The notes beneath the pieces are model-generated. The model made no database searches, was not told the DNA's origin, and saw nothing but the letters and a program-made list of their open reading frames with translations. Shown here one piece after another: positions 1-60,490 of a DNA stretch of 64,000 nt. The position numbers and the translations under genes were made by a program. Source of the stretch: Diphasiastrum complanatum (Eukaryota > Streptophyta > Lycopodiopsida > Lycopodiales > Lycopodiaceae); NCBI GenBank assembly GCA_029204225.1, contig CM055102.1, positions 1,915,629 to 1,979,628 on the forward strand. Reading direction: 5' to 3'. Each line of letters starts with the position of its first letter. Position 1 is the first letter of the stretch.

Positions 1-101
1 TCCTAAATCTTCATAGATCTCTTTATCTATCATTTGTTGAGAGAAAAGTGAGTGCTAAGTGCTTTAGGACAGAACCTAAAAGTTGAAGAAACATTAGAAT
101 C

Positions 102-3100
102 ATGGCTTCCAATGGTGGGATCATGCTAGAGTCTAGTGAAAGGTTGAGTTCATCAAACTACTCTACTTGGAAAGTGAGGATGGAGTCCTTACTTGAGTTG
201 AATGAACTCATGGACATAGTTGCAGAAATTGAAGAGAGACCTCTCACACTTCAAAAGCAACAAAGGTTTGATAAGAAGGCCAAAAGGGCTCTTCATATCA
301 TTAAAATGAATGTTACAAATGAACTTCTCAAGGAAGTTGGAAAGTGTCAAAGTGCAAGTGAGGCATGGAATGCCTTAAAGAAGCTCTTTGAATCAAAGTC
401 CACATCTAGGGTATTGACCCTAAGGAGACAAATATTTTCTAGTAGGCAAAGAGAGGGTGAAAGTGCTCATGCATTTATCTTGAGAGTTAAGTCCCTAAGT
501 GATGATTTAGCATGCATTGATGAGAACATAAAAGATGGTGAAATAGTCCAAGTTATGTTGAATGGTTTGCTAAATGAACATGCTAACCTTGTGCAAAGTT
601 TTGCCATTCAAAGAGTCTTGCCAAGTGTGGTTGACTTGCAAGAAATCTTATTGGCTGAAGAACATAGGTTGCAATCAAAGCTTGATGGTGCATCCTTGCA
701 AGGTGGAGGTGAAGAGGCTTTCTTCACAAAAGGAAAATTCAAGGGCAAAGGTAAAGGCAAAGGGAAATGGTCCAAAGGTGGTAACTTTGATCATGATGAT
801 CACTCTTCCTCTTCCTCTTCTACTAAGAACAATAAGTCAAAGTTCAAGTGCTTTTATTGTGGGATAAAAGGTCATTTTGCAAATGAATGTTATAAGAAGA
901 AAAGAGAGCAAGGAGAGAGGCAAGGAAATCTTACAATAGATGAGGAAGAACATAACACATGTGAATCACTTGTTATGACTTCAAGTTTGTTAGCCAACAT
1001 AGATGATAATGATCCTTGGTGGATTGATAGTGGAGCCTCATCTCACATGACAAGACATAAGGAATACTTTACATCCTTATTGTCTTATGAGGGAGAAGGT
1101 AACATCATCTACACTGCAAATGATGGTCAATGTGACATCAAAGGCATAGGCACTATTCCTATTTCCCTTTCAACAAATAGGAAAGCAAATCTTGAAAATG
1201 TTTTGTACATTCCTTCAATCACTAAGAATTTGCTTAGTGTAAGTCAAATGATTGACAAAGGACTTGATGTGGAGTTCATTGGAGATGCATGTTTGATAAG
1301 TAAATGTGGATCCTTGATTGCTCAAGGTAGGAGGCATGGTAAACTTTTCAAGCTTGATGCATGTGTGATCTCTAATCATGAAGGATGTATGGCTAGGGAG
1401 CAATTGACAAACCAAGAAGTTTGGCACAAGAGGTTGGGCCATCCCAACTTCAAATCTTTGGAGGTAATGGCAAAGAAAGAGCTTGTTCTTGGTCTCCCTA
1501 AAAGTCTTGTTGCAAACAATAGTGTTTGTGAACATTGTGCCTTGTCCAAATCTCATAGACTTGCTTATTCTAGATCTACTTCTAGATCTAAAGAAGCTTT
1601 TCAACTTGTGCATTCTGATATTCATTCTTCTAGTACAACTAGCAATGGTGGGGCAAAGATGTATGCAACTTTCATTGATGACTTTAGTAGGTATACTTGG
1701 ATCTATCTTCTTAAAAGTAAGGATGAAGTGTTTGCTGCATTTGTCAAGTTCAAGAATGAAATGGAAAACCAATTCAATACAAAGATCAAATGCTTAAGAT
1801 CTGATAATGGAGGGGAATACACCTCAAATAGGTTCAAAGACTTTTGTATAGCACATGGGATTAAGAGGGAGATGTCTAGTCCTAGGACTCCACAACAGAA
1901 TGGAGTGGCCGAGAGGAAGAATAGAACCCTTTGTGAATGTGCCAAGGCAATGAGACTACATGCTAATCTTGCTAAGTCTTTTTGGGGGGAAGCTTTAGCA
2001 TGTGCTAACTATCTATGTAATAGATGGACAAGTGCTTCCTTGGATGGTAAAACTCCTCATGAGGTTCTTTATGGTAGAAGGCCGAGTGTCAAGCATTGTA
2101 GGATCTTTGGATGTACATGTTTTGTCAATATCACACTTGATGATAGAACTAAAGAAGATCCTTCATCAAAGAAGGGTGTGTTTGTTGGCTATAGTGAAGT
2201 AAGCAAGGCTTACAAAGTGTACATTCCTTCTACAAAGAAAGTTGTCATAAGTAGGGATGTCATCTTTCATGAAGAGAATGTTTCCAATGTTGTTGATGTT
2301 GATGTTGATGTGCCTACTAATCATCATGATGTGCAAGATGTCTTGGATGAAGATGGAGATGCCACTCCAAAGCAAACTTCAAGGAAGACTCAAAGGCAAA
2401 GGGCTAAGCCATCAAGGCTAACCTATGATGAAAAAGGAAAGCAAGTGGTGGACAACTCTAACTTTGCTTTTCTTACCTCTTTTGATGAACCAACTTGTGT
2501 AGGTGAAGCAATTCAAAAGAAGGAATGGATCCAAGCCATGGATCATGAGCATCAAGCACTCATCAAAAGCAACACATGGAGGTTGGTAAAGCTTCCAAAG
2601 GACAAGAAGGCAATTGGTTGTAAGTGGATCTTCAAGATCAAGACAAATCAAGATGGATCAATCAACAAGTACAAGGCAAGGTTGGTGGCAAAGGGGTATG
2701 CTCAAGAATATGGTATTGACTATGATGAGACCTTTGCACCCATGGCAAAGATGGTAACTATTCGAATCCTAATCTCTCTTGCAACTCTTTATGATTGGGA
2801 TATGTGGCAAATGGATGTTACTAATGCCTTCTTGAATGGTGATCTTGAAAAAGATATTTACATGGAGCAACCCGAGGTCTATGTTTCACATGATGAGCCT
2901 AATCATGTGTGCTATCTCCAAAAGAGTTTGTATGGGCTAAAGCAAGCACCAAGGAGTTGGTATGCTAAGCTCAATTCCTTCTTACTTTCTCAAAACTTTG
3001 TTATGAGTGAGTATGATCATTCTCTCTACTTTAGATTGAATGAAAATGATATCACTTTACTTTTGATCTATGTTGATGACATTATCTTAAGTGGTGGTAA

Positions 3101-4055
3101 CAATCTAGATATAGATGAAATCAAGATGGCACTCAAAAGAGAGTTTGAAATTCAAGATCTTGGTAAACTTCATTATATCTTAGGAATAGAGATTATTAGA
3201 ACTTCTAAATCTACATTCATATGTCAAGAAAAGTATGTTAACTCTATTCTAAAAAGGTTTCATATGGAAGATTGTAAAGTTGTTTCTACTCCTATGGAAT
3301 CAAATGTAAAGCTAACTACAAGAAGTAATGAAAGATCCTTCAAGGACATTACTCTCTATAGAAAGCTAATAGGATCTCTTATATGGTTAACCATCACAAG
3401 ACCTGATCTAAGCTTTGTGGTTGGTAAACTAAGTCAATTTATGCAAGATCCTAGTGAGGCTCATTGGAAGCTAGGAAAGAGAGTACTTAGATACATCTCG
3501 GGATCTAGAGATTTTGGCATCTTGTATGGAGGTACTACACCTAACCTTTGTGGATTTTCAGATTCAGATTTTGCAGGTGATCAAATGGATAGGAAGTCAA
3601 CAAGTGCCTTTGCAATCTATCTTGGAGATGGAGTGGTCTCATGGCTATCAAAGAAGCAACCAACTATCTCTCTATCTTCCACCGAAGCCGAGTACAAGGC
3701 ATTAACAACATGCACCAAGGAGATTCTTTGGATCAAGAGGATGTTATTGGATCTTCACTTGCTGGAACCAGAGAAGACTCAAATCATACTTTGTGATAAC
3801 CTTTCAGCCCAAAGCTTGGCAAGCAATCCTGTTTTTCATGCAAGGAGCAAGCACATTGAGATTGCTCACCATTTTGTGAGAGATCAAGTCATTGCCAAAG
3901 AGGTGGAGCTTCAACATGTCTCTTCAAAGGAGTGTGTGGCTGATATCTTCACCAAACCATTGGGAAAGGACCTATATTTAATGCATAGATCTAATCTTGG
4001 AATGTGCTCAAAGACTATGTTGAAACTAGCATCCAATGTTGAAGAGGGAGTGTGA
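102..4055 (+). CDS. Copia gag-pol polyprotein (1317 aa)
   Basis: A single open frame encodes all proteins of a Ty1/copia element, which replicates by reverse transcription in cytoplasmic particles and integrates the cDNA. The order is: gag (about residues 1-240); a Lys/Gly-rich stretch and a CCHC zinc knuckle (CFYCGIKGHFANEC, near 250); aspartic protease (WWIDSGASSHM, near 307); integrase with its HHCC zinc domain (HKRLGHPN ... CEHC) and catalytic core (TFIDDFSR, SDNGGEYTS, TPQQNGVAERKNRT, about 440-650); reverse transcriptase (KARLVAKGYAQ ... YVDDIILSG near 989); RNase H (SDSDFAGD near 1155, LSSTEAEYKAL). The length is typical for plant copia. The ATG at 102 follows an A-rich leader and no in-frame stop breaks the protein. 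It has all catalytic motifs and may be active; expression is unknown. Confidence 0.96.
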   Translation: MASNGGIMLESSERLSSSNYSTWKVRMESLLELNELMDIVAEIEERPLTLQKQQRFDKKAKRALHIIKMNVTNELLKEVGKCQSASEAWNALKKLFESKSTSRVLTLRRQIFSSRQREGESAHAFILRVKSLSDDLACIDENIKDGEIVQVMLNGLLNEHANLVQSFAIQRVLPSVVDLQEILLAEEHRLQSKLDGASLQGGGEEAFFTKGKFKGKGKGKGKWSKGGNFDHDDHSSSSSSTKNNKSKFKCFYCGIKGHFANECYKKKREQGERQGNLTIDEEEHNTCESLVMTSSLLANIDDNDPWWIDSGASSHMTRHKEYFTSLLSYEGEGNIIYTANDGQCDIKGIGTIPISLSTNRKANLENVLYIPSITKNLLSVSQMIDKGLDVEFIGDACLISKCGSLIAQGRRHGKLFKLDACVISNHEGCMAREQLTNQEVWHKRLGHPNFKSLEVMAKKELVLGLPKSLVANNSVCEHCALSKSHRLAYSRSTSRSKEAFQLVHSDIHSSSTTSNGGAKMYATFIDDFSRYTWIYLLKSKDEVFAAFVKFKNEMENQFNTKIKCLRSDNGGEYTSNRFKDFCIAHGIKREMSSPRTPQQNGVAERKNRTLCECAKAMRLHANLAKSFWGEALACANYLCNRWTSASLDGKTPHEVLYGRRPSVKHCRIFGCTCFVNITLDDRTKEDPSSKKGVFVGYSEVSKAYKVYIPSTKKVVISRDVIFHEENVSNVVDVDVDVPTNHHDVQDVLDEDGDATPKQTSRKTQRQRAKPSRLTYDEKGKQVVDNSNFAFLTSFDEPTCVGEAIQKKEWIQAMDHEHQALIKSNTWRLVKLPKDKKAIGCKWIFKIKTNQDGSINKYKARLVAKGYAQEYGIDYDETFAPMAKMVTIRILISLATLYDWDMWQMDVTNAFLNGDLEKDIYMEQPEVYVSHDEPNHVCYLQKSLYGLKQAPRSWYAKLNSFLLSQNFVMSEYDHSLYFRLNENDITLLLIYVDDIILSGGNNLDIDEIKMALKREFEIQDLGKLHYILGIEIIRTSKSTFICQEKYVNSILKRFHMEDCKVVSTPMESNVKLTTRSNERSFKDITLYRKLIGSLIWLTITRPDLSFVVGKLSQFMQDPSEAHWKLGKRVLRYISGSRDFGILYGGTTPNLCGFSDSDFAGDQMDRKSTSAFAIYLGDGVVSWLSKKQPTISLSSTEAEYKALTTCTKEILWIKRMLLDLHLLEPEKTQIILCDNLSAQSLASNPVFHARSKHIEIAHHFVRDQVIAKEVELQHVSSKECVADIFTKPLGKDLYLMHRSNLGMCSKTMLKLASNVEEGV

Positions 4056-7124: not shown

Positions 7125-8099
7125 TTGAATCTATATAAACACCAATTGGACCAGGAATGTGAAGAGCATATATTGCTTCTTCAAACATACCAAAACATGT
7201 TTGCTTGGTCGATGGATGATTTAATAGGAATACCAGTTAAATGGGATGAACATAGAATAGATCTTATTCAGGGAACAATACCTGTTAGACAACATCAATA
7301 TAGATTGAATCCAAAGTACTCCTTATTAGTAAAAGATGAATAAGATAGATGTCTTAGAGCGGGTATTATATATCCTGTTCTAAGCAGCGAGTGGGTGCCA
7401 CCAATAGTTATAGTACCTAAGAAGAAGACGGGCAAGATTAGAGTTTGTCAAGATTTTAGAAAACTAAATGCTGCTACAACAAAGGATTATCATCCTCTAC
7501 CGTATACATATACCATTCTTGACCAGGTAGCTGGTCATGAACGTTATAGATTTTTAGATGGATTCTCAAGTTATAACCAAGTTTTTATAAAAGAGGAAGA
7601 TAGATCCAAAACTACTTTCACTACTGATTGGAGGACGTACGCATATACGCGAATGCCCTTTAGTCTTTGTAATGCACCTGTCACATTCCAACGTATGATG
7701 ACAAATATTTTTCAAAAAATTTTAAGAAAGTTTTTAAAAATTTTCATGGATGACTTTTGTGTCTATTCATCAACTAAAAACCATTTAGATACATTAGAGA
7801 AAACATTGAGAAGATGTCAAGAGACATCTCTTAAACTGCATCCAGCTAAGTGTTACTTTGGGATGAGGGAAGACATCCTTTTAGGGCATAAAATTTCGGA
7901 GGATGGTATACAAGCCGACATTGAAAAAATAAAAAAGATTTTAGAATTATTAGAACCAACCAATTTAAGAGAGCTTAGAGGTTTTCTAGGACATGTAGGT
8001 TACTATCGAAGGATAATTGAAGATTATGCTATAATAGTAACTTCTTTAACAAGTTTACTAAAAAAAATTGTTGAGTACCATTGGACACAAGACCATTAG
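7125..8099 (+). pseudogene. Gypsy reverse transcriptase, broken by stops
   Basis: The frame includes the pre-RT segment (DLIGIPVKWDEHRIDL, 7200-7270), then PPIVIVPKKKTGKIRVCQDF and RKLN, FLDGFSSYNQVFI, MPFSLCNAPVTFQRMM and the catalytic FMDDF (normally YxDD; the third-position residue is still Asp) near 7746. The thumb/connection GFLGHVGYYRR follows near 7981. RT copies the element RNA into DNA. The combination 'LDGFSSYNQ' with 'CYFGMREDILLGHKI' fits the non-chromovirus (Tat/Athila-like) branch of Ty3/gypsy. Stops at 7341 and 8097 split the frame, so this copy is dead. Confidence 0.88.
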
Positions 8100-9555
8100 C
8101 AAGCTTTTGATCAATTGAAACAGTCATTAGCAGAAGCCACTGGGGTTAGACCTCCAAATTGGGCTAAAAAATTCCATTTATATGTAGACACATCATCGTT
8201 TGCAATAGGTGTAGTGCTTAGTCAGAAAGATGACCAAAATATAGATTATCCAATTTACTATGCAGGAAGGCAACTCGCTGCATCAGAAAAGAATTATTCC
8301 GCTACAGAGCGAGAAGCACTAGGGATGATTTATTCAGTAAAGAAATTTAGACATTACCTTTTAGGATACCCTTTTGTTTTTTACGTAGATCACTAAGCAT
8401 TAAAACTTTTAGTGAATAAACCTGATCTTTCGGGTAGAATAGCTAGATGGATATTATTATTAGATGAGTTTAATTATGAAGTAGAATTAAGAAGAGGCAA
8501 GGATCATCAAAATGCTAATTATATATCCCGCCTCCAAACAAAAAATCAATTTTATGATGAATTTCCAGATGAACATATAATGCATATTCAATCAGAAACA
8601 TCAATATATATGGACGTTATTAATTTCTTACAGGACCAGATATATCTTGAACATTATAATAAACAACAAAAAACTGTTTTTCTTTCTAAGGTAGGACCTT
8701 ATACGATTGTAAATAGTATATTGTGTAAATTAGGAACTGATGATAGTCTCCACCGATGTCTAGAACCAACCGAGACAACCGCTGTAATAAGTGCATTACA
8801 TGATGAAGATTCGGGAGGTCACTATGATCTTAAAAACACTGCAAAAAAGATTTTCAATGCTAAATATTGGTGGCCTACCATCTATAGAGATGGTAAATTA
8901 TTCATTAAAAAATGTGATGCATGCCAGAGGATGGGGAAACCCAGCTTTGCAACACATTGGCCATTTACTCCAATTATTTCCTTAACACCCTTTGAGAAGT
9001 GGGGGATAGATTTTGTAGGACCTATCAAACCGATCATGCGTAAAACTCGTCGTTGTTACATACTCGTTGCCACGAACTATGCTACCAAGATGGTAGAGGC
9101 CGAAGCCACAATTAAGAACGATGCTAAGACTGTAGCAAAGTTTTTATTCCAAAACATTATCACGCGATATGGTTGTCCCTTATAACTTGTTAGCGATAGG
9201 GGAACCCATTTTCTTAATGAGACCATTGAAGCCATGTTGTCATATTTTTCTATTACACATCGCCAAACCACTCCATATAATCCAAAAGCAAATGGGCTTA
9301 CAGAGCGAGCAAATATAATTCTATGTAAAATTTTGAATAAAGTAACAGAAACACATTCTTCTGATTGGGATCAGAAGTTACCGTCTGTCTTATGGGCATA
9401 TAGAACTGCTGAAAAGATTACAACTAGGCAGACTCCATACTATCTTGTGTATGGAATGCATCCCATACTACCAATAGAATTCAAAGTTTCGACGTTTTGC
9501 ATTAGTAATGAAGAGCGAATGGATGAACACGATAGTCTCCGGGAGCGGATGATAT
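8100..9555 (+). pseudogene. Gypsy RNase H and integrase, truncated at a junction with copia
   Basis: RNase H (about 8115-8560) shows LYVDTSSFAIGVVLSQ, YSATEREALGMIYSVKKF, RHYLLGYPF and VDH; a stop follows at 8394. Integrase (about 8780-9550) shows the zinc region (H...H, CDACQRMG), WGIDFVGP, the SDRGTHF core after a stop at 9183, and YNPKANGLTERAN. The frame is open again from 9234 and runs into copia sequence at about 9555, where the element is cut. The C-terminal integrase and 3' LTR of the gypsy element are absent. Confidence 0.87.
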
Positions 9556-10015
9556 CAAGATGCAAGATCTTGGAAAAATTCACTACATTCTAGGATTAGA
9601 GATTGACTTTCTTAAAGATAAAGCTTTTGTATGTCAATCAAAGTATGCTCTTTCAATTTTTAAAACGTTCAATATGTTAGATTGTAAGAGTATAGAAACT
9701 CCTATGGAGCAAAATGTAAAAGACCCTAACAAGGGTGATGAAAGATCCTTCGTGGACATCACACTTTTTAGGAGTCTTATAGGCTCCTTAATTTGGCTCA
9801 CAATAACTAGACCTGACATAAGCTTTAGTGTTCATAGGTTGAGCCAGTCTATGCAAAATCCTACTATTTATCATTGGAAAATGGCCAAGAGAATGCTTAG
9901 ATATATATCTTCAACCTTTGATTATGGTTTATTGTATAAAAGTGAAGATCTTTCTATTGTTGGTTATTCTGACTCGGATTTTGCAAGTGATAGAGCATAT
10001 CAAAAATCTATATAG
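9556..10015 (+). pseudogene. Copia RT/RNase H fragment fused to the gypsy remnant
   Basis: It begins within RT ([18 protein letters not shown]), continues through [26 protein letters not shown] and the RNase H opening (VGYSDSDFASD), then ends abruptly with a stop at 10015. The rest of RNase H is deleted and the polypurine tract follows within about 10 bases. The protein is close to the reverse-strand copia fragment at 23.9-25.2 kb, so both belong to one family. Confidence 0.88.
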
Positions 10016-10032
10016 ACTGTTTTTAGGAGGAG

Positions 10033-10800
10033 TGTTCAAATGGAAAAATAATCCATCTTGTCTTTAGGCTTGCTACAAATATTGTACCATGCAAGTATGT
10101 TGTTCATAAATGCAAAATGCCAAGTTTGGCCTAGATAGAACTTGAGCTACATGGAGATGTCACATCTAGAATGATGAGTACAACTTGCATATAGTTTGTA
10201 GACATAGAATTAGCAAAATTATGCTTGTAGAAACTTGTGGCAATTCACATGCATTAATTGTAAGTGATCCATAGTGACATGCAAGGCATTCACAAAGTGT
10301 AATGGACACATGCATGATGATTTGTACATATCTAGTTAGAACTAGCACACTTGGAAAAAGTTGGTAGAGTTTCATGCATGAGAAGTGACAAATGTCACAT
10401 AGACTCTAGTTTTCACTTTAGATGTCATTAAATGATGGATGGATGTGGTTCTACCTCGAGCTATCTCAAACTCCATAAATATGTGTAGCTCTCCTCATAT
10501 TTTGTGAGGAAGAACCAAAGCTTTGTAGCTATCTCATGCCATTTTGGATCCACATATTTTTTGATTGTTATATCTCTATCTTTCTCTCTCTAACTCGTGT
10601 TGAGGCTAACACTAATACACTGATATCTTGTACTTTTGTTCATTATTGATTTATTGCTATCATATTCTGATGCTTAGCATGCTAGATTGTGGTTAAGCCA
10701 TATCTTCTGAACTAGATCTTGTTAATCAATCTAGAATCATGTTACTATGCTAATCACAAAGCTTAATTAGATCCATCATACTTGTGGACATTTTCCACAC
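10033..10800 (+). repeat. Probable 3' LTR of the truncated copia element
   Basis: It starts TGTTCAAATGG directly after the purine tract TTTTAGGAGGAG. The related reverse-strand copia has the same tract followed by TGTTGAAATATT, which supports the start. A CT-rich stretch near 10560-10600 may mark the transcribed leader. The 3' end is uncertain and may be near TTTCCACAC at about 10800. Confidence 0.6.
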
Positions 10801-14616
<3,816 letters not shown>

Positions 14617-25740: not shown

Positions 25741-26196
25741 TGACTAGACTTGTACCTAAGCCATTTGACACAAGTATTAGCCAAGTTTTTTTGCACTATG
25801 ACTCACCTGAATACTGTGCAATTTGGTTACACACCAATCACCAAAATCTAAGCATTGTACCTTACCCTAAGTTTACATCCAAAGTCTTATTAAAAAAAAC
25901 AAAAAAAAAAAAAAACAACCAAACACAACACCAGCAAGATAGTCCAAACCTTCTACATAGATGCGAGAGAGTGGCAGAGTCAGGCGGGGAGAGGCAAGGG
26001 CTCGCGTGATGGCGATGCTGGGGAAGTCAAGCTGATATCGCTACAACGCGAGAGGGTGTAAGGAACGGGCATGGGGAGGAGGTTGCTCGCGTGATGGCGA
26101 TATCACAAATGCATTTCGTATGGATGCAATCAAACGTGCTAGAAAATTATGCGAAAACCTGTACAATCCCCGGAAATGGACTTATATAGGGGAGAA
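25741..26196. other. Spacer with repeated CTCGCGTGATGGCGAT block
   Basis: Non-coding. The block CTCGCGTGATGGCGAT occurs at 26001-26016 and again at 26086-26101. The second copy has a perfect 18-base inverted partner at 26821-26838. An A-rich tract lies at 25890-25916. Confidence 0.7.
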
Positions 26197-26660
26197 AAAT
26201 TGGCACGTGTGAATACCAGTGACACGTGGCCCAGTCAATAGCTGACATGTGGAACCACACGTTTGTATACGCAAGTGTGAAATTGCACGTTTGGATCAAC
26301 ACGTGTGGGAACCCACATGGCCGAATGGATCAGTGACATGTGTTCTCGCACGTATAGGCTCACACGTGTGATCACGTGGCCCAATCAGTACCTGACGTGT
26401 GGGATCTACACCTCTGTATCCGCATGTGTGAAACTTGCACGTGTGTCCATGTGATCCAATGGTTTAGTGACGTGTGTTCTGGCACGTGTGATCTTGCACG
26501 TGTGGGCATGTGGGCGAATTGCAGATTGACGCGTATTGTAGCACGTGTGGTCTCGCACATGTGGACGGTTGTACTACGCGCCATAGATCTAATCCGTTGT
26601 TGGATCGACGAGTGTACGGCTTGGATTTTCTTGATTTTAGCTATATAAATGTTGTTTGAT
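26197..26660 (+). promoter_or_regulatory. ACGT (G-box) / CCAAT tandem array with TATA box
   Basis: About 380 bases are packed with CACGTGTG and related ACGT cores. They are organised as five degenerate units that each start C(A/G)(C/T)GTGG, carry a CCAAT-like box and then TGAC(A/G)TGTG. Units start near 26223, 26314, 26373, 26448 and 26507. A TATA box, CTATATAAAT, sits at 26641-26650, before gene A. G-box cores are bound by plant bZIP and bHLH factors (known biology); that this is a promoter is inference from position and the TATA box. Confidence 0.6.
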
Positions 26661-26913
26661 CAGTTAAAACATTTCGTTAAGTTTTGGATTTTCACTCCCT
26701 GTATCTCACAGTGTGTGAACAGTTCTTTTTATTTGCAGTATCGCTACCACACGAGAATCTTTTAGAGATTCTAGACGATCTAAGATCCCTCGCGTCGTTC
26801 CGATATCAGGTCATTCGCCAATATCGCCATCACGCGAGGAAGTCCTGATTGTCTTCTGACTCCCTACCGCCCCGCATCGTAGCGATACTCAACCATATTG
26901 GTCATACTTTCGA

Positions 26914-28447
26914 GATGGCCACGTCATCCTCTAATACTTTTGATTCTGCTTTGCACACCTTCCTCGTTGATATCCGGTGTTGGTAACTACATAGGTCACT
27001 ATAAGACATATTTCAATATGTCTTTTGATATTGAGAGGTTTGGATCAGAACATAAATCATATTTTCCAGTGTTGTATAAGGAGTATTATGATAGTCTGAA
27101 TCAGTCTATGTTGATCATGGATAATCTACGATTCATCCATTTCCATGACCTAGTACTTGCCCAACCATCGTCAAAGCAAAGCCATAACCGACGATTCACG
27201 AAAATTGTGAGTGATTTTAAACGTGTGGTCCATTGTGACTAGCACAATCGATCATGTCATTTTTTGCAGGAAGGCATGGGCTTTGTGTTTTATCTTTGTG
27301 CTCTTATTCCTGATGAGGCAAGAACTTCGACGCTTAGCATTGAGGGTGCCTCATCATCAACTGATTCTGTGATATCAGAGTCAGCTATTGTTGATGACGC
27401 CTTGGGTGCTGACGAGGAGGCAAGATTGGCTTCAATATACGACCCAGTCGAGTCTCGTGCATTGTGCATTTTTTCCTTATCTGACGTGAATCCATATGAC
27501 AAAACCAAGACTCTCCTCGATTTGCCAGTGTATTACATGAATAGTGTCGCATACATCTCACTGAATGATGTTGGAGATGTTCTTGATTTGAGGGAGGACG
27601 AAATATTATCAATTTTGTCTAATTTCATCAAAGAATTCGAGGACTTCATAGATCTCGACGGTGATGATGATCTACGTGCTTCTACTGATTACAAAGACGG
27701 AGATGAATGGATGGATGGGACTGAAGCACTATAGTCAATCATGTCTGAAAGCAGGGCATACCAGGCAAATTTGCCCGATGAGGAGGAATTTATGAAAATC
27801 CAGAGCAGATATGTGTCACAGTCTTCGGAAACTAGTCCATCCAGTGCTTCGATGATCATTGTTGCTGGTCATGATCTACATACTGCTGCACTTATTGAAG
27901 CTGATGAGCGTGATCTGGTAGGTAAATCTGGTTTTATCTTAATGAGATTTTTATTCAAATATAGTCATTTTGTTTTACAAGACATGTGACATTTGCTCGT
28001 ATTTTATAGGATACTGTTGAGGTGGATGCCTTTGCAACAAGGCAGGGATATTTGAGGGAAGGCCAGAGATCACGACAAAGGTATTCATCCCTGTCCAATT
28101 ATTTGAAGTGCTTTGTAAATAAAGAGATTTGCATTCATCATAGCAAATTTTCTTCAAATGTTGTGACAATAATAATAACAATTAAAGCGTTATCCTATTT
28201 CTCGAACGGGCATAAATACCCTCCAAATACATATAAAATTATTTTTGTGAAGAGAGACATTGCCATAAAAGTGTTTGGCTATGTAGTTGAGGACGTTCCG
28301 AAAAGGTCTTCCTCCTTAGCTGTTTTCTTTGGATACATTGACTTGAAAAAAAATAGATCGATTGATTTTCTATATCCATATGATAGAAAAAAATTTCTTC
28401 ATGACCACACAACAAAGCTGATCATTAAAGACAAAGAGAAACAATGA
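26914..28447 (+). pseudogene. Gene A: unrecognised spliced gene, first of the four-gene cluster
   Basis: I do not recognise the protein. An ATG at 26914 opens a short frame (MATSSSNTFDSALHTFLVDI) that needs a one-base shift to join the next open frame (ISGVGNYIGHYKTYF ... DNLRFIHFHDLVLA). A good intron follows: donor after ACGAAAATT at 27208 and acceptor TTTTTTGCAG before 27270. The second exon is acidic and Ser-rich (about 27270-27914) with one TAG stop at 27732-27734, after which the same frame continues. A donor near 27917 and an acceptor near 28010 lead to a short exon (DTVEVDAFATRQGYLREGQ). ORF 28022-28447 runs on past this exon, but part may be intron. The protein would be mostly acidic with no domain I know. 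Confidence 0.45.
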
Positions 28448-28549
28448 TTTTGCCTTGCATTGTACTACACATGATGCGATATAATACATATATTTTTTTT
28501 CGTCTGATATCATGCAATTTACTATGGGTTGACTCTTGCATCAATATTA

Positions 28550-31156
28550 TTTTCGTCTATAAATTTGCACGCCTTTCTGAATTTCTGATAATTTGTTGAT
28601 CTAGCTTTATATCGGATTTGAATACGCCTGTAGAACCATTGAAATAGTTGGATGATGTAACTATTTTTGAGATGTTCCACCGCGTTGTGTATTTCGATGA
28701 AATGCTGCTCTGGCTTGCCAATGCGATTTCCCCATTCCTTGTGATGACCAAATACTTAGACTTCCGTAAGCTTTTGCAAAAAATGATGCATGATGTCGTA
28801 AAATGTGCTACAATATTAGAGATACAAATATTGTCATATTAATCATTTTAAATTTAGCATATGTGCAATGAGATTATAAATCGAAGAGTTAGTTACATTG
28901 AAAAGAGATTTACCATATAATGCGTAATATGATCTTCACCCCAGGCGTCTTTAACTGCATCCACAAACTCAATTGTTGATTTCTCAATTAGTAGGACATC
29001 AGTATCAGATAGTTTATCTTTTCTGAGCAATTTGGCCATGTTGTCAAGCTTTGTCCAAACTTCAACTTTTTTAATCCTCGTTGTTCCTTTTTCTTCAAAA
29101 TCCTTTGTGGCATTGAGTACATCTATCCAAATTGAGTACTGGATTTTAGTTGGTTTTTTGGAATGATTTGATAAGAAACAACGAGCTTTGGATCCTCCTA
29201 TACTTGGTTTGCATGGGATGTTTCCCGTTTTTCTTGAAAGCTTCTCGTCCTTTTGTATTTTAACGTGTCTTTTATGAAGTCCCGCTTTTGATCAAACTTC
29301 TTCCAATCGAGCTCTATTTGGCTAATGACTCTGGCTTAGTATTCCAAGAAAACCAAATATGAAGGTATATCAATTTCTTGATAATTCTAACCTCTCCATG
29401 TAGTGTACAAATGTGAACATTTTTAAGCGGAATCGGTAATACTAGTTTCCAAGTCGGATCTTCTATATCCCTTGAAACTCTCGTGCTCTTCGACATGTCA
29501 TGTGTAGTTTTCATGCAATAGAGGCATGGATGTTTTGAATTTGCTCCATTTGAGATGTTGAACATGCACTTCAACGACTTCAGGTCTCCAGCCAAATGCC
29601 ATTCCACCTTAAAATCACCTATTCCAGGGACATTGAGTGGTGTGTCGCTCATATGATTCTTAATTATCTCTGGATATTCTGTTTTACTAAAAATCCAAAA
29701 TAGAATGTCATGATCTTCTTTTAAAACCTGTTTGAAACGCAAAATCATGAACTATTTTAGGAGAATTGAACTCAGACCTATAATAACAGAACAATATTAG
29801 CTTAAAACACAAAACCATTAATTCTTGAAATGAATTAGTTGCTAGTACTCAATAGAATAGATTTAAACCTGGAAAGCTGCCAACCACCAGATATTATTTT
29901 TGGACTGCACACTGAAATAAAGACTCTCCGAGTTTATCGTATTGCTTAATGCTCCATTCATAAGTGTAACACTAACCCTTTCCAGCTTTTGTCCCTTTAT
30001 TACTTCTGATTCATCTAACTTGAGAACTAATATCAATTTTTCAACACTTTCATTTGTGATTCCATAAAACTTTACAATAAATCTCAGTAAATGATTCAGA
30101 TCTACAAACATATTGTTGATAGAATCATATGACAAAGTGCCATGTTTTGAGTTATAAATTTCATGAATATGGTAAGGAATACCAATGATGTTTTGCAAAC
30201 CCTTGTTTAACACATCCCTCTCTAATTTGATTTGAAAGGGCTGGGGAATAGGAAATTTTTTCATATGTACTTGTCCAAATGCCTCTTTGATAATTTTAAA
30301 CATTGTGTCATATGCATCCCTGCTAATACCAGAATAATCATATGCCCCTTGTATCAATTTTCGGTCAATGATCTTGCCAACTTCGCCCATAAGGGCCTCT
30401 GCAATCTTGGACTTGATTCAAGAATATCGTTGATTTCCAAGTAGACTCGTTGTTGACTTGGCTGTAAGTACTGCACTCAAAGACTTTTCAATCATGTCCT
30501 TGTCTTTCAGATTTTCATTGGTGACTAAAGCTGATCTGCAAAAGAAAAATAAGATTTAGAAAAAAAACAATTCACAACCATTGAGTGCTAGATGAAACAA
30601 AACACATGAATAGTTTAAAACATAATCTTACTTGAAAGCATATATTCTTTTTTTCCGTTGAACCCCACTTGTTGAAAGCTCGTCAATACTTTTTAAAATA
30701 GCTCTTTTTCGCTTATTGTTCAGTATTTTCTGCCGTAATGTGTTTACTTCTACATTTATTTGACAATATGAGGTACGCAATGTTTGTACAATTAGTTTCA
30801 TATTGTCAGTCTCTTGGTTGAGGTTTAATATAATATCTTGCAAACGAGAATTATCTATCTTCAAGATTTCATTCTCTTCTTTTGTTTGCAAAAAAATAGT
30901 TTCTCTTTCTTTCACAATAACCCAATAGACCATTGTGTCCTTCACACAAAAACAGTATGAGTTGTGTGATCGATCTAAAATTTGGATGTTGCATTGAGCT
31001 TGGATCGACTGGATACAAACTTCCTTCAACCCATAGATCACAATGTTTCCTGTCTTCCATCCTTTGGTGAGCTGGTAAGGTGGAACCCTTCGGATTTTTT
31101 CTCGACAATGGAGCATATTCTGTGGGAAGATCAATATGGAGATGATATTTAGACAT
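28550..31156 (-). pseudogene. Gene B: DDE-transposase-like gene
   Basis: Minus strand, convergent with A. The first exon (31156 to about 30632; one frame change inside) ends in a long coiled coil (KEENEILKIDNSRLQDIILN) and a basic tail. A donor at 30632 and an acceptor at 30535 join exon 2, which has one TGA near 30419 and contains KLDES (near 30020), a plausible first acidic residue. Exon 3 (from about 29778) has HLAGDLKSLKCMFN and a CLYC pair (near 29570-29520), then LHGEVRIIKKL. The arrangement D...GDxK...CxxC resembles uncharacterised eukaryotic DDE transposases (family resemblance from memory). Further coding remnants extend to 28550 (WTKLDNMAKLLRK, HKEWGNRIGKPEQHF). Total coding length would be roughly 700 residues. 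Confidence 0.55.
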
Positions 31157-31261
31157 CTTAATAATCGATAGATTAATCTAGTAGAAAACCAATTTGTTAT
31201 ATATCTTGTAAGCTATTAAAACTCGTCTTAATTAAAAAAAAATTAATTGAAAAAGTTTGAA

Positions 31262-32891
31262 ATGACCTTGGCGCTCTTTTTGATCCATCACACTCCATGT
31301 TTCTTGTTTGATATGCAAAATCAATGCGGATTCGATGTTGTGCTCCATTCATGGCAAGAGGGTGACACTGATGCCCAAGGACATGCTTGTTGTCATGAGG
31401 CTTCGAAGCACCTATGACAGCATTTTTAAGTCTGGATTCACACAGAGGCAAGTTCCTCTTGAAAGGGGGCATGTCCCACCCCGCAAAAAGAGAAAGCAAG
31501 CATAGCCCAAACATTCGCAACTCAAGCCCAGGTCTCCCAGCTCTTCACCCTCACCTCCTCCCATTAGAAAAGATCTGGCTAGTACGTCCGAAATTCCACT
31601 GGTTGAGAGTCCTCCCGTAACCTCTGATCTTCAACTGCACGATTCTCCTTCTATACATGAGGATGACCTAAATACAGTGGTAGACATGATTGTTTCTGAT
31701 GTTGATGCAACTGATAAAGAGTTGCACATTAGACTTCCGAATGAACCTAAAAACGCATTTTTTTATTCTGAGAGCTACATTGATTTTGACCTGTATATAG
31801 TCAAGAAAATAGATGATCTCGGAGGGGAGTTTATGTTTTGTATAGACAATATTAATTTTGCAATGCATATCAAAGACCCGCATTGTAGGGAGCTAAAAGA
31901 GAAGACCTCATATATCTCAGACACAGTAGTTGAATCTGCTTGTGCATACTATCCACATAAATATACATATACAGTCACGAAGGAGATTTCTTTTGTATCT
32001 CCATTTTTTGGGCATCTGTTGAATAAAGAGAGGAAAGCCAGAAGGCTCTTTAGGCACACCAGCAAAGAGGCATCAATGTTCATCATCCCATACTGTTCAA
32101 AGTAAGATAGTTTCTTCTTGTAAAGTCTATTTTAAGTAAGATTTTTCTTTTGGAAACTCTTATAGATTCTAGTAATTCATTGCTTGTCTCTTTATGGCAG
32201 CAAACATTGGAGTGTGCACGTCATATCCATGAAGGTGGATTCAATTGGAAGCTGCACACATGTGTGCATGACAATGAATTCTTTGCATGCCACCCATTCC
32301 ATGATTAAATCCATGTACAAAAGGATGGTGGAGCTATTGCCCAGGCCAGATGGGTTGGTTGTAAATACCAACATAGAGGTTGTTGATGCAAAGGTAAAAG
32401 GAATCTTTTTACGTATTTTATTTGCATGATGGCATGTAGTTTAGAATTATATTGAATTATACTTTAATAATTTTTCGCTGTGATTTCTCAGTCTTTGCAA
32501 CAAGACGATGCTTTCAGTTGCGGATGGTATTCAATCTGGAACGTTAAATCGTTCTTGGTTTGGTTATGGTGCAACCTCCAGATGCTAGTATCCATGAGGT
32601 ATTTTTTTCAATGTTCCAGTATCCTGATGATATATTGTTAACTTTGTGAATTTATATATTTAATAACATTGGCTAATACATACATACACTCGATATTTTT
32701 TTTTGGAGTTCCAATGTCCTGAGGTATCAACAAATGCGATTCATCAGTATCGGCATGAAATGTTGGAAATTTTACTATCACGTGCAAGGCCCTACAAGCA
32801 TGAAGGTGCCTCGGATGAACCTGCTAGGGGATCCGTGGATAAGGTTACAGTGCTCAAGGATATGCCTCAGGCACCTTTGATTGAAATGTAA
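31262..32891 (+). pseudogene. Gene C: histone-H3-like segment fused to Ulp1/C48 cysteine protease
   Basis: Exon 1 (about 31262-32101) starts with a stretch matching the end of the H3 histone fold: LCSIHGKRVTLMPKDM then RLRSTYD (31338-31412), against LCAIHAKRVTIMPKDI and RRIRG in canonical H3. Upstream, one base out of frame, MTLALFLIHHTPCFLFDMQN can be laid on helix 2. After a basic RKKRKQ (nuclear-signal-like) and one TAG (31503-31505), the same frame continues through a Ser/Pro-rich linker into an acidic region. Exons 2 (32201-32393), 3 (32492 to about 32590) and 4 (from about 32709) encode the peptidase: KHWSVHVI (His), TMNSLHA (Asn where Asp is usual), LQQDDAFSCGWY (Gln and Cys), C-terminal HEMLEILLSRARP. 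C48 proteases cleave SUMO-type conjugates. Plant transposons often carry Ulp1 domains; an H3 segment in the same frame is unusual. Confidence 0.7.
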
Positions 32892-33398
32892 ATATAGTTC
32901 TGACAGACACATAGAAATATATCATTACATGATGATCCATAGAACAATAAATAGGCAAATAGAAAGTGGGCTATTACTGAATGCCACAAATATATTATAT
33001 CGATTTCAAAAACAATGTACATTTTTCAAAATACTAAATACAAATTGCTTGATGAAATCTTAAAGTCATTTGAGACTTCTTTGTATTCCTTTTTTTTTGA
33101 AAAAGTACATTGATGTTGCTCGTATATCATCCCAATGTTTATGCAGTTTCAACAATTTCTACGCTTCTATTTAAGTCCTTGCACTCTATGCGACTTTCTG
33201 TCTTGGTCTTACCTGTACATCAAAGAAACTTGTTAAACAATATCAACATTGAGAATGTCAAATGAAATATTGCAATACCGAAAACACTGAAACATGTTTA
33301 AATAAAATCATTGAAAGTCATTTCAAATGAGTACTAGAATAAATACACATACACCTACCAATCTCTCGTTGACTCGAAAACAGAAGTGTTTAGGAATA

Positions 33399-34543
33399 TC
33401 ATATTGCAACAATGTAAGCTCTGATCGAATGTGATCGAGTGTCTTCTTTCACCTCAATTGTTGTAAGAGTAGAATTATTTTTCCTCACTTGAATTTCTAT
33501 TTGATCTTGATGATTCACTGTAAAATCCTGATCCAATGCTTTCCATCCGTTGCCAACTTTGGACCATCTTCTATAATAAAATGTTAAAGAAAGCACTTGT
33601 TTTTCTATAAGATATCTAAATTTTATTGACGATCTATTAACTATGCACTCAATATTGCCATTACTCTTTTTATTCCAATGATCATCAAGGAGGCTTGATA
33701 ACATATTGTCTGTTAAATCACTACAAATAAACATTGTCACTGTTTTACGAATATTACATTCAACAAAAAAATCAACAAAAATTGCATTAGGCAAAAACCA
33801 ATGCAATCTATTGTTTTTTGAACCTGTGCTACATTTCATACAGTTTTGAATGTCCATAAAAAACCTTGATCGGAAGCTCTCTACTATGGTGGAATCTGGA
33901 GGAATCCATTCTTCGCTTGAGAAAGAGGGTAATGGTATCGCCTCTAATTTTCCACCTAAACTAGATGGTGTGTAAAATGAATCATAGAAGAAAATACAAG
34001 AATCCAAAAGTAATCTCGTGGAGCGGTTCTTGTATTGCAGAAGACCAATATCAGAATGAATAACGTCCATGATGTCGACAAGGGATTGTATAGGTTGCCA
34101 TTCGATTATGCTTGATGGATACAAATCTGCACAAATCCATAAAACTATATGTCATTTAAATACCCAGATACACGTCTAAATGATTAATGCAAAGCTCAAA
34201 GCAAAAAAATTCTCCAAAACTTACAATTGCATTTGAGTCTGTCATTTGAACTTACGCCTTCCACTCTAATTTCCTTATGCATGTAGACATGTTGAATCAA
34301 GACCTCTGAAATGGATCGACCACCGGGTGAAACTTTGAAGTCTAAAATTCTACCTTTCCAAAAATTCCTATAATCCATATTTGATTTTCTCTTTTTACCA
34401 AAAACACCTCTTGAGGAGGGATGCATGAGAACCCAGTGAAATTTTCTATAGATACATGGTATCCAAGAGCCATCAGAGTCTTTTTCATTACAAACAAAAA
34501 CTGAAACAATATTACTTCGTGGTCTACGACTTCCGAAAGCCAT
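33399..34543 (-). CDS. Gene D: unrecognised intact protein, 348 aa, one intron
   Basis: Minus strand, convergent with gene C. I do not recognise it. Exon 1 is 34543-34225 (MAFGSRRPRSNIVSVFVCNE ... SNDRLKCN), exon 2 is 34126-33399. The donor (ATT|GTAAGT) and acceptor (TTTGTGCAG) are good, and exon lengths (319 and 728) give exactly 349 codons with no internal stop. Exon 1 has a basic patch GKKRKSN. Exon 2 is mixed with many aromatic residues and a Lys/Glu-rich end. It has no signal peptide or membrane segment. It is the only undamaged gene of the cluster. A structural or DNA-binding role in a mobile element is possible, but that is a guess from context. Confidence 0.6.
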
Positions 34544-34654
34544 TACAAAGCTAAAAGAAGATGAACAACAGAGTTTGGAACAAAATATAGTTGAATCAGT
34601 ATGAAAATAAATAACCAAATTTGTAATAAATGTTGGCGGTCTTTCGTAAATCAT

Positions 34655-35200
34655 ATATGTTAGTCTAACTACGGTTAGATCAAAATAGACTTACTTTAAC
34701 CACAAGTGTTAGGTCTCGGGCACTTAGGAAACTCATGGGCAGCAATTAAGGTCCAATCACAAGTCAAGACCCTGTCCGACGGGAGTTTTAAATTGTATAA
34801 AAATATGACCGGAAAGTTCCAAAAAAAAAAATCGACCGGTAACAACGTTACGATCTTTCACAGGTGTAAATATATAACTGGGCCAAGTACACGTCGAATA
34901 GTTGAAAAGTCAAAAACAGCATCTTGACAAAAGGCCCTTTTGGTGCTCAAAACTCCTCTAATGATTATAATCAACATTGCGTAAGCGGCTGCCATTCACC
35001 GGAGTATCAAATCGTTTTCCATCCAAGTGCTCAAGAATTACTACGCCATAGTTCAAGATTTCCTTCACTTTATCATAATGGTGCAGGGAATCTTATTGGA
35101 AGATTCAACTTGGCCATTCCCTCTGGGATACTAGGGAGTACTAAATCTGTGTATAACAAAAAACATCTTCTAGTAAACACTTTATTGTTTGATTAACAAA
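34655..35200. other. Flank of gene D, no gene seen
   Basis: The stretch holds a possible promoter of D (A/T-rich TATAAAAATATG near 34796, plus strand reading) and short frames without recognisable protein. No terminal inverted repeat matching the other side of the cluster was found by eye. Confidence 0.4.
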
Positions 35201-57178: not shown

Positions 57179-58834
57179 CAATATAGCATGGGACACAAAA
57201 GGCCTGGTTGTAACTGAAGGCAAATTGCAAACAATTACCATGTCCAGTGTTGGACCTGCTAAGTAAGCTTCTATTGTGAATGTTCCAATTTCGTCAGTAA
57301 ATCAAAACCTCTAAATTATGTAACCTGCATAAGCACTTTTGCATTCTCTCATGTTTTGTCGTATTTGTAGGATGAAAGAGATACTACACATCCTTCTCGC
57401 TGACAAGCCTACAAGGGATACATGGGGAATGCCTTCTGACAATAAAATTTTTCGCAAATACATGTACAAGGAAACATACTGGTGGCAAGCAATATTGCTT
57501 GCAAACTCCATAATTAGTGGCCTGACCACATGCGAAGGAGATTGCTTGCCTGACAACACTGACTCATTTTTTAGGAGACAAAGCCAATTGCACTTCAACC
57601 GTGCTTTTGTTGACATTCAAAAAGATATGAAGAACTCTGCCACGCCCAATAAGCAACCACAGATCGATTATACAGCTAGACGACTAGTGTACTGGTAATG
57701 AAATGCATTATTAATTGGATGTTTGTGCTTATTGTTAATATGCAATGCAAGAAATTTTAACAATGTTTATTCTTCTGCCAAGTGGTTGGTTTGGCTCGTC
57801 GATGAAAATGTGATAACAAAACTCCAAATAGAAGTTGAGAACTGGATAGTTATTGGGGTAACCTACTCACTCTATCCTGAAGAGTGGAGAGATTTTGGAA
57901 TTAGTTCATGGGAGCTAAAGAGGTGTCCTTGGTGGTTGGACTACCCAAATGGGGAGAGACATCTTTGATATGTTTTGTGAGTGGGAGGCCATAAAAAAAG
58001 GAAAACGTGTGCAATCTGAGAGAGTTGCAGCTTCAACATAAAAAGCAAGACACAAAATCCTAAACCTTGACAGACAGGAAGCAAGAACCAAGCTAAGGCA
58101 AGATTGCACAGCGAGTGAACTAAGTATAGAAGAGGAGCATAGTGCAAGGGGGCAATGTGGGCCTAGTAATATTGATGAGGATGAGACAGCCACTGACGAG
58201 CATACTTCTGAGGAAGACCACTTCAACATTGGCACATGTATGTATTGAGTGTAAGTTGCAAATTTTTATGGCTTTCTTAAGTGTCCTTTTTGTCTAGACT
58301 CTAATTCGAATACGTGACTATGGACACAATGCATTGTCGTGTACGTGCAATCTTAGAGGATGTGCATAGGATCGCAAGAAAAAAAAAACCAAACAAGATC
58401 ATCTGCCATTTCTTGAGGAGCCATTGTCTGTCAGACTACACAATCAATGGAGAGGCCACCGACGTTGTTGGAAGGTTGGTGTGGGCTGACTTTCCTACCT
58501 CGGTTTGTGTCTATGGCATAGCGGATGAGTATTCAGTGCCCCCTTGGAATATATTCAATGATGACTTGGCCAGGTCAGCATCAATGATTGCAGGCAAGTA
58601 CGTTGCTGACCGGGGATGGTATGTCATCACATGCATCCCGGAATGTTTTCCGTCCATTGACGTGCATGCTTCAGGAGAGGGGTTTAGTCTACATAGGTGT
58701 TTGACAGTCATTCTTGAGAATGGATATATTATGACAGAGCGAAGAGAAAAGGTTTGTAATTTTCTATTGGTCACTTCATCATGTGTTTGTGTAGTAATAT
58801 CAATTGCTTTGGTATGGATGTACTAACTAGGAGT
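57179..58834 (+). repeat. 1656-bp tandem duplication, copy 1
   Basis: Copy 1 starts CAATATAGCATGGG and runs through the exons to the last intron's TACTAAC branch point. It matches copy 2 at a constant offset of 1656. I counted six substitutions and no indel, about 99.6 percent identity. Confidence 0.95.
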
Positions 58835-60490
58835 CAATATAGCATGGGACACAAAAGGCCTGGTTGTAACTGAAGGCAAATTGCAAACAATTACCATGTC
58901 CAGTGTTGGACCTGCTAAGTAAGCTTCTATTGTGAATGTTCCAATTTCGTCAGTAAATCAAAACCTCTAAATTATGTAACCTGCATAAGCACTTTTGCAT
59001 TCTCTCATGTTTTGTCGTATTTGTAGGATGAAAGAGATACTACACATCCTTCTCGCTGACAAGCCTACAAGGGATACATGGGGAATGCCTTCTGACAATA
59101 AAATTTTTCGCAAATACATGTACAAGGAAACATACTGGTGGCAAGCAATATTGCTTGCAAACTCCATAATTAGTGGCCTGACCACATGCGAAGGAGATTG
59201 CTTGCCTGACAACACTGACTCATTTTTTAGGAGACAAAGCCAATTGCACTTCAACCGTGCTTTTGTTGACATTCAAAAAGATATGAAGAACTCTGCCACG
59301 CCCAATAAGCAACCACAAATCGATTATACAGCTAGACGACTAGTGTACTGGTAATGAAATGCATTATTAATTGGATGTTTGTGCTTATTGTTAATATGCA
59401 ATGCAAGAAATTTTAACAATGTTTATTCTTCTGCCAAGTGGTTGGTTTGGCTCGTCGATGAAAATGCGATAACAAAACTCCAAATAGAAGTTGAGAACTG
59501 GATAGTTATTGGGGTAACCTACTCACTCTATCCTGAAGAGTGGAGAGATTTTGGAATTAGTTCATGGGAGCTAAAGAGGTGTCCTTGGTGGTTGGACTAC
59601 CCAAATGGGGAGAGACATCCTTCATATGTTTTGTGAGTGGGAGGCCATAAAAAAAGGAAAACGTGTGCAATCTGAGAGAGTTGCAGCTTCAACATAAAAA
59701 GCAAGACACAAAATCCTAAACCTTGACAGACAGGAAGCAAGAACCAAGCTAAGGCAAGATTGCACAGCGAGTGAACTAAGTATAGAAGAGGAGCATAGTG
59801 CAAGGGGGCAATGTGGGCCTAGTAATATTGATGAGGATGAGACAGCCACTGACGAGCATACTTCTGAGGAAGACCACTTCAACATTGGCACATGTATGTA
59901 TTGAGTGTAAGTTGCAATTTTTTATGGCTTTCTTAAGTGTCCTTTTTGTCTAGACTCTAATTCGAATACGTGACTATGGACACAATGCATTGTCGTGTAC
60001 GTGCAATCTTAGAGGATGTGCATAGGATCGCAAGAAAAAAAAAACCAAACAAGATCATCTGCCATTTCTTGAGGAGCCATTGTCTGTCAGACTACACAAT
60101 CAATGGAGAGGCCACCGACGTTGTTGGAAGGTTGGTGTGGGCTGACTTTCCTACCTCGGTTTGTGTCTATGGCATAGCGGATGAGTATTCAGTGCCCCCT
60201 TGGAATATATTCAATGATGACTTGGCCAGGTCAGCATCAATGATTGCAGGCAAGTACGTTGCTGACCGGGGATGGTATGTCGTCACATGCATCCCGGAAT
60301 GTTTTCCGTCCATTGACGTGCATGCTTCAGGAGAGGGGTTTAGTCTACATAGGTGTTTGACAGTCATTCTTGAGAATGGATATATTATGACAGAGCGAAG
60401 AGAAAAGGTTTGTAATTTTCTATTGGTCACTTCATCATGTGTTTGTGTAGTAATATCAATTGCTTTGGTATGGATGTACTAACTAGGAGT
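58835..60490 (+). repeat. 1656-bp tandem duplication, copy 2
   Basis: The second copy starts immediately after copy 1 at CAATATAGC. Copy 1 and copy 2 both end in CTAGGAGT. The bases CAA follow both copies and also start copy 1, so the junction has about 3 bases of microhomology. Only this copy is followed by the methylase motif I exons. Confidence 0.95.

Follow-up and report, generated by a model that had tools for sequence, protein, structure and literature searches.

Both a histone H3 and a Ulp1-like protease have already been described as cargo of DNA transposons, the former in fungi and the latter in plants. According to the available portions of two reports, an H3-like gene is carried and amplified between the inverted repeats of fungal hAT transposons, as in the H3L of Pyrenophora tritici-repentis and the elements of Pseudocercospora fijiensis and its relatives (PMC3538342, PMC6710886). 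In plants, the available text describes Ulp1-like domains inside MULE and CACTA elements, in either orientation to the transposase gene (PMC13317346, PMC2528002), and Ulp1-carrying VANC (KIU) genes of VANDAL transposons that direct hypomethylation of related elements (PMC13317346). The term ulp1 is absent from PMC3538342, the word histone has 0 occurrences in the main texts of PMC13317346 and PMC2528002, and a literature search gave no H3-Ulp1 fusion among the matches listed (titles and starts of abstracts, in a collection without most subscription papers and bioRxiv preprints). Such a fusion would join two known transposon habits, H3 capture and Ulp1 capture, in one protein.

The element described here is, like the fungal hATs, a DNA transposon with an H3. 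There are two differences: in the hATs, as far as the available text goes, H3 is a separate ORF, whereas here it is fused to a Ulp1-like protease; and the fungal elements are hATs, whereas here a plant-like host carries a transposase-like protein without a Pfam match. With KAONASHI/KIU, the VANC genes of VANDAL MULEs and CACTA-ULP (as portrayed in the accessible passages) the element shares a Ulp1-like domain in a plant DNA transposon. Unlike VANDAL MULEs and CACTA-ULP, it showed neither a MULE nor a CACTA domain when its ORFs were scanned with Pfam.

The window is the whole 64-kb stretch of DNA analysed. What it contains is a truncated, decayed and rearranged copy of a multi-copy DNA transposon of about 10 kb, in which the left half (25960-31328) is inverted relative to the right half (31325-34963). 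The rearrangement breakpoint, near 31325, is where the H3 piece of the window now starts, the true H3 start having been lost there. The parts recognised are:

25960 to 31328 (-): inverted left half with transposase-like pieces, 94-95% identical to element A 7187-12639 reversed
27243 to 28447 (+): accessory ORF pieces of 163 aa and 145 aa in the inverted half, expected on the minus strand of an uninverted element, no Pfam match
28893-29291, 29314-29751, 29863-30417 and 30628-31212 (-): transposase-like ORFs in the inverted half
31325 to 31505 (+): H3 variant remnant with L2, helix 3, C-terminal extension and basic RKKRKQ, from the breakpoint to the TAG at 31503-31505 (PF00125, 1.3e-6)
31506 to 32101 (+): remainder of exon 1, with the Ser/Pro linker and the N-terminal portion of the Ulp1-like domain (open frame, splice donor placed, conserved in the family)
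32201 to 32393 (+): exon 2, with HWS and with Asn where Asp is usual (PF02902 composite, family alignment)
32492 to 32598 (+): exon 3, QQDDAFSCG with Gln and Cys, frameshifted here and in L023
32709 to 32891 (+): exon 4, C-terminal tail (four-exon model)
33399 to 34690 (-): accessory right-end gene, ORFs of 250 and 164 aa, no Pfam match, a relative in one TE3 locus
34942 to 34963 (+): right terminal inverted repeat end ...GGTGCTCAAAACTCCTCTAATG (element end alignment)

An earlier note, made from the letters alone, had read an H3-like L2-helix 3 stretch with RLRSTYD in this DNA, and the reading was borne out. The segment LCSIHGKRVTLMPKDM...RLRSTYD is encoded by ORF 31284-31505 (+), whose residues 9-41 match positions 90-122 of the 122 in the Pfam Histone profile, above the cut-off (29.1 bits against 26.4); the outcome that would have refuted it, a likeness to H3 no better than chance, did not occur. 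The best E-value against H3 chains in the PDB was 3.7e-5, and tblastn of the 64-kb window with an H3 sequence aligned 15/26 identical residues at 31329-31406 (E=2e-6; the runner-up reached only E=2.5). None of these E-values is corrected for the number of windows and ORFs in a genome scan, yet the H3 identity is settled because full-length H3 copies exist elsewhere.

Peptidases of the C48/Ulp1 type use a His-Asp-Cys triad with a Gln. The same note had proposed that RKKRKQ and a Ser/Pro linker lead into a spliced C48 peptidase with His, Gln and Cys, which holds for the joined exons (31506-32101, 32201-32393 and 32492 to the frameshift): together they pass PF02902 (E=1.2e-5, 25.7 bits, cut-off 20.7), and no single exon piece of the window copy matches it in Pfam. 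Of the catalytic residues, His stands in HWS, Gln in QQDD and Cys in SCG, and Asn (MNSLH) replaces the usual Asp. The frame had been described as broken by a single TAG; that stop is there, with the frame open again from 31506, but the exon 3 frameshift is a second lesion. About 92 kb away lies the near-twin L023 (G000:C11:2034180-2044179), which is likewise rearranged, is nearly identical to the window copy and shares its TAG and breakpoint; the pair is probably a segmental duplication.

That the H3-Ulp1 fusion is genuine and in frame is supported by other genomic copies and by a second, diverged family, and not by the broken window copy alone. The 1.74-Gb source genome was searched with the H3-like ORF, and the best 150 of 4850 first-look candidates were scored: at least 150 places match, each at E<=7.5e-26, with 78-89% identity except for the window copy and the ORF-identical copy about 92 kb away. 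Twenty loci of 10 kb were extracted for reading. The frame starts with an N-terminal tail (MARTKQTAR or close) in 17 of them and runs on through the whole H3 fold, the linker and the Ulp1 part, with interruptions in many; L021, L023 and L024 have no H3 start in the stretch followed. Exon 1, the exon that matches the window remnant, is open from Met to end in five of the 17 (L009, L010, L011, L015, L017). One copy of the 18 followed over four exons, L015, is intact (517 aa, GT-AG introns, no stop, frameshift or lost splice site), and the other 17 are broken. The exon-1 product of L015 scores 84 bits against PF00125 (E=1.3e-23) and that of L009 77 bits (cut-off 26.4). Residues 20-124 of L015 cover profile positions 21-121 of 122, a complete fold, and the ARTKQTAR tail is found in 17 copies; the window copy has neither. 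The first 160 residues of L015 reach 1.3e-22 against solved H3-family chains in the PDB, and CENP-T_C and CENP-S also match L015, both below their cut-offs.

These copies overturn the earlier suggestion that a C-terminal piece of H3 had been captured: the loci that begin with a whole, tailed H3 rule out a fragment only, and it is the window copy that lost the rest. Separate, adjacent H3 and Ulp1 genes are ruled out by the open frames in the copies and by the second family, and the comparison of related copies brought up no homologues in which the two are separate genes. The anatomy alone, with H3, linker and Ulp1-like domain as one gene of a transposon, can be taken as nearly certain. Beyond the source genome, the window composite was compared with a protein collection that does contain relatives of the transposase-like protein; of 648 candidates none reached E<=1, and no relative of the fusion emerged. 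Viral contigs yielded 5 pattern matches and 0 relatives of the fusion, and the plasmid and Rfam searches gave no match.

The same H3-Ulp1 fusion occurs in a diverged second family, TE3 (loci L053+L057 and L051+L068). Compared with residues 1-326 of the first family, TE1, it is 30% identical (blastp 7e-36, with an X placed at a stop), and each part is significant alone: 40% identity and E=2.7e-25 for the H3 part, 24% and 5.5e-13 for the part after it. In L051+L068 the exon with His and Asn (HWSLNLISIK...KMNS) is followed collinearly by the Cys exon (QQNDSFSCGW), in L053+L057 the Cys exon is inverted, and a stop or frameshift interrupts each of the two copies read. Taken most simply, these sequences mean that the fusion is older than the split between TE1 and TE3, and such an age would speak against a recent accident. 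A third family, TE2 (in G000, loci L034-L046, L055 and L056), is a numerous stand-alone H3-like family with a Pro-rich N-terminus and no Ulp1 fusion; most copies read have a true stop after RRERN. An opposite-strand ORF downstream of TE2 shows a weak 25-residue similarity to one of the TE1 accessory ORFs.

The earlier note had allowed for a mobile element, and the fusion is indeed transposon-borne. Elements A and B, two copies taken with extended flanks, are 93.7% identical over a 10-kb alignment; their ends read CATTACAGGAGTTCC... and ...GGTGCTCAAAACTCCTCTAATG. Element A has an imperfect terminal inverted repeat of about 30 bp by alignment; B has the same terminal letters, but its best local repeat alignment fell elsewhere. 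With one mismatch at most, the left end is present 179 times across the genome, against 0 for a control pattern. Pairing 133 of the 150 places with the 100 listed of the 179 left ends put a typed H3 place inside the element, on the same strand and 1.5-14 kb away, for 29 of the 100 (18 of the 29 at 5.4-6.7 kb); pairs on opposite strands numbered 4, and pairs with the H3 place outward of the end numbered 2. None of four elements compared at both flanks showed a target-site duplication, though one of the pairings, that of L022 over 12 kb, is uncertain. The ORFs of element A run in the order transposase-like (+), unknown (-), H3-Ulp1 (+), unknown (-). A search with the transposase-like protein gave 25 homologues at E<=1, with identities of up to 78%; neither its pieces nor the nine of these 25 that were scanned passed a Pfam cut-off. 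By eye, the 163-aa accessory ORF of the window resembles a minus-strand ORF of element A, and the stretch of element A that matches the right-end gene aligns by tblastx, in pieces 41-61% identical, with the TE3 locus L053+L057.

Both domains show constraint. For 18 copies, dN/dS pooled from all pairwise comparisons comes to 0.44 (codon bootstrap 0.37-0.55), a value that blends selection before insertion with decay after it and comes from copies that are not independent; the set includes L023 and leaves out the fragments L021 and L024 and the window copy. By part, dN/dS is 0.42 (0.28-0.69) for the H3 fold, 0.41 (0.29-0.57) for Ulp1, 0.55 (0.32-0.94) for the tail and 0.65 (0.38-1.24) for the C-tail. 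In the H3 tail, K4 is kept in 17/17 copies; position 9 holds L (15) or F (2) and K in 0/17. Six residues of loop 2 and helix 3 (H107, K109, R110, T112, M114, D117) are invariant in 18/18. The catalytic residues of the Ulp1 part are His in 15/17 copies, Gln in 17/18 and Cys in 14/18, with Asn for Asp in 17/17. PF02902 reaches E<=1 in three of the seven copies tried (Pfam, best 5e-6), and the intact L015 protein has no match to it at E<=1. Searched against PDB sequences, the Ulp1 part of L015 brought up no peptidase and nothing but a dynein (E=0.29).

The main reading, to which we give a probability of roughly 0.45, is that a diverged complete H3, a basic and Ser/Pro linker and a C48/Ulp1-like domain form a single protein, a chromatin-tethered deSUMOylase that would oppose silencing of the element. 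The H3 part may let the protein join histone-chaperone or nucleosome traffic, and this traffic would bring the protease to chromatin; the protease could then strip SUMO from silencing factors, leaving the element expressible. The fusion is present in the DNA, repeated in the genome, found in two diverged families and under dN/dS < 1; that it is translated, deposited in chromatin, able to cleave SUMO and active against silencing is what we infer. The anti-silencing role is proposed by analogy only, the passages on VANC (KIU)-directed hypomethylation being counted in its favour. The protease is the weakest link of the proposed mechanism, with a marginal Pfam score and, in TE1 and TE3 alike, Asn in place of the Asp. 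Should the protein be produced, the transposon would supply an enzyme-bearing histone variant of its own, a direct means of rewriting its home chromatin, and the fusion would be a testable tool for studying the support that SUMO gives to plant silencing or centromere assembly.

The fusion could also be useless to the element, H3 and Ulp1 genes having been transduplicated into it and fused by chance. The 17 broken copies among the 18 followed would fit such a passenger, as would the fungal precedent, since the available portions of the hAT reports show no function for the transduplicated H3 (PMC3538342, PMC6710886). However, the fusion is shared, together with the exons that follow it, by two families only about 30% identical, and dN/dS is below 1 in each domain, the upper bootstrap bound being below 1 except for the C-tail. 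A useless passenger seems unlikely.

Another account gives the H3 part a centromeric source: it would derive from CENH3 and bring either the protease or the element to centromeres, for deSUMOylation of kinetochore assembly factors. The H3 of TE1 shares with plant CENH3s LLIP-x-A-x-F in helix 1, a longer loop 1, RW, DSMLC and RVTLM (TLM), the comparison being with three plant CENH3s. Across TE1 copies the P of LLIP is kept in 10/17 and the W of RW in 16/17. Loop 1 is four residues longer than in host H3, against one or two in the three CENH3s, and the core has 87 residues versus 83 in canonical H3. Unlike plant CENH3, the transposon H3 has a protease domain, an ARTKQTAR tail start and a helix 3 ending in VMRL, not ARRI/L. 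In Arabidopsis, one paper reports that both SUMOylation and ULP1d work on alphaKNL2, a factor that loads CENH3, and on CENH3 binding (PMC12903445).

Three results bear on it without favouring it. First, the tree points both ways: a group of TE1, TE3, the CENH3s and the protein P0002 has support of only 44/32, and among the labelled rows a branch with 71/80 puts the transposon H3s and the three CENH3s on opposite sides. Second, a genome search for H3-like sequences recognised no host CENH3, returning canonical H3, then copies (those read mostly TE2 or TE3) and H3-like exons. Third, the copies are dispersed: 127 typed places of the 150 scored are spread along the chromosomes, and 74 collapsed places show no clustering and fit a uniform spread (KS p=0.32; best matches sampled only, on contigs of known length without C4, C7 and C14), a result on gene copies that says nothing on where the protein localises. 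A CENH3-derived, centromere-directed protease seems unlikely. The broader version is about equally unlikely: the lineage's transposons would have captured CENH3 and fused a SUMO protease to it before the families split, and would use the product as a nucleosome-borne deSUMOylase that resists silencing or subverts centromere assembly. By entering chromatin, the product would render the chromatin it occupies difficult to silence, its tail retaining K4 and offering no K9 to methylate.

Several further H3 proteins were compared. P0001-P0005 also combine an H3 domain with extensions; PF00125 is their only listed Pfam domain, and no Ulp1 motifs were recognised in them by eye. P0002 (407 aa, with long extensions) has CAIHGKRVTLMPKD...YD in common with the transposon H3, which its helix 3 region (CAIHGKRVTLMPKD..LAMKIRGDYDKYF) resembles. 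The one copy of canonical host H3 read (L033) has A31 and Y41; H3 Phe41 first arose in ferns, according to the part of PMC5809374 available. Taken with the plant-type copia elements of the window, this single gene copy suggests that the host may be a non-seed plant.

A third alternative keeps the main reading's protein and shifts its activity to the histone, which as a decoy or poison would take up H3 chaperones or H4 and weaken nucleosome assembly or H3K9-based silencing, Ulp1 only processing or stabilising the product. The unchanged loop 2/helix 3 residues, a position 9 that is never K and the numerous stand-alone H3-like copies of TE2 agree with this. The protease domain, however, is under constraint similar to that of the H3 fold, and the idea looks very doubtful. 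Chance resemblance of a short peptide to H3, suggested by a match that spans only about 26 residues in the window copy, is ruled out for practical purposes by full-length H3 in the same frame of other copies (L015, E=1.3e-23).

Other mobile DNA lies in the same window. Plant-type copia elements were recognised by eye, and a Copia-like retrotransposon at 87-4055 has one uninterrupted frame of 1322 aa. Towards the other end, a perfect direct repeat of 300 bp (57179-57478 and 58835-59134) recurs 1656 bp apart and a 173-aa ORF is found twice at the same 1656-bp spacing (58305-58826 and 59961-60482); because repeat and ORF recur at the same spacing, the 57-60 kb region is probably a tandem duplication.
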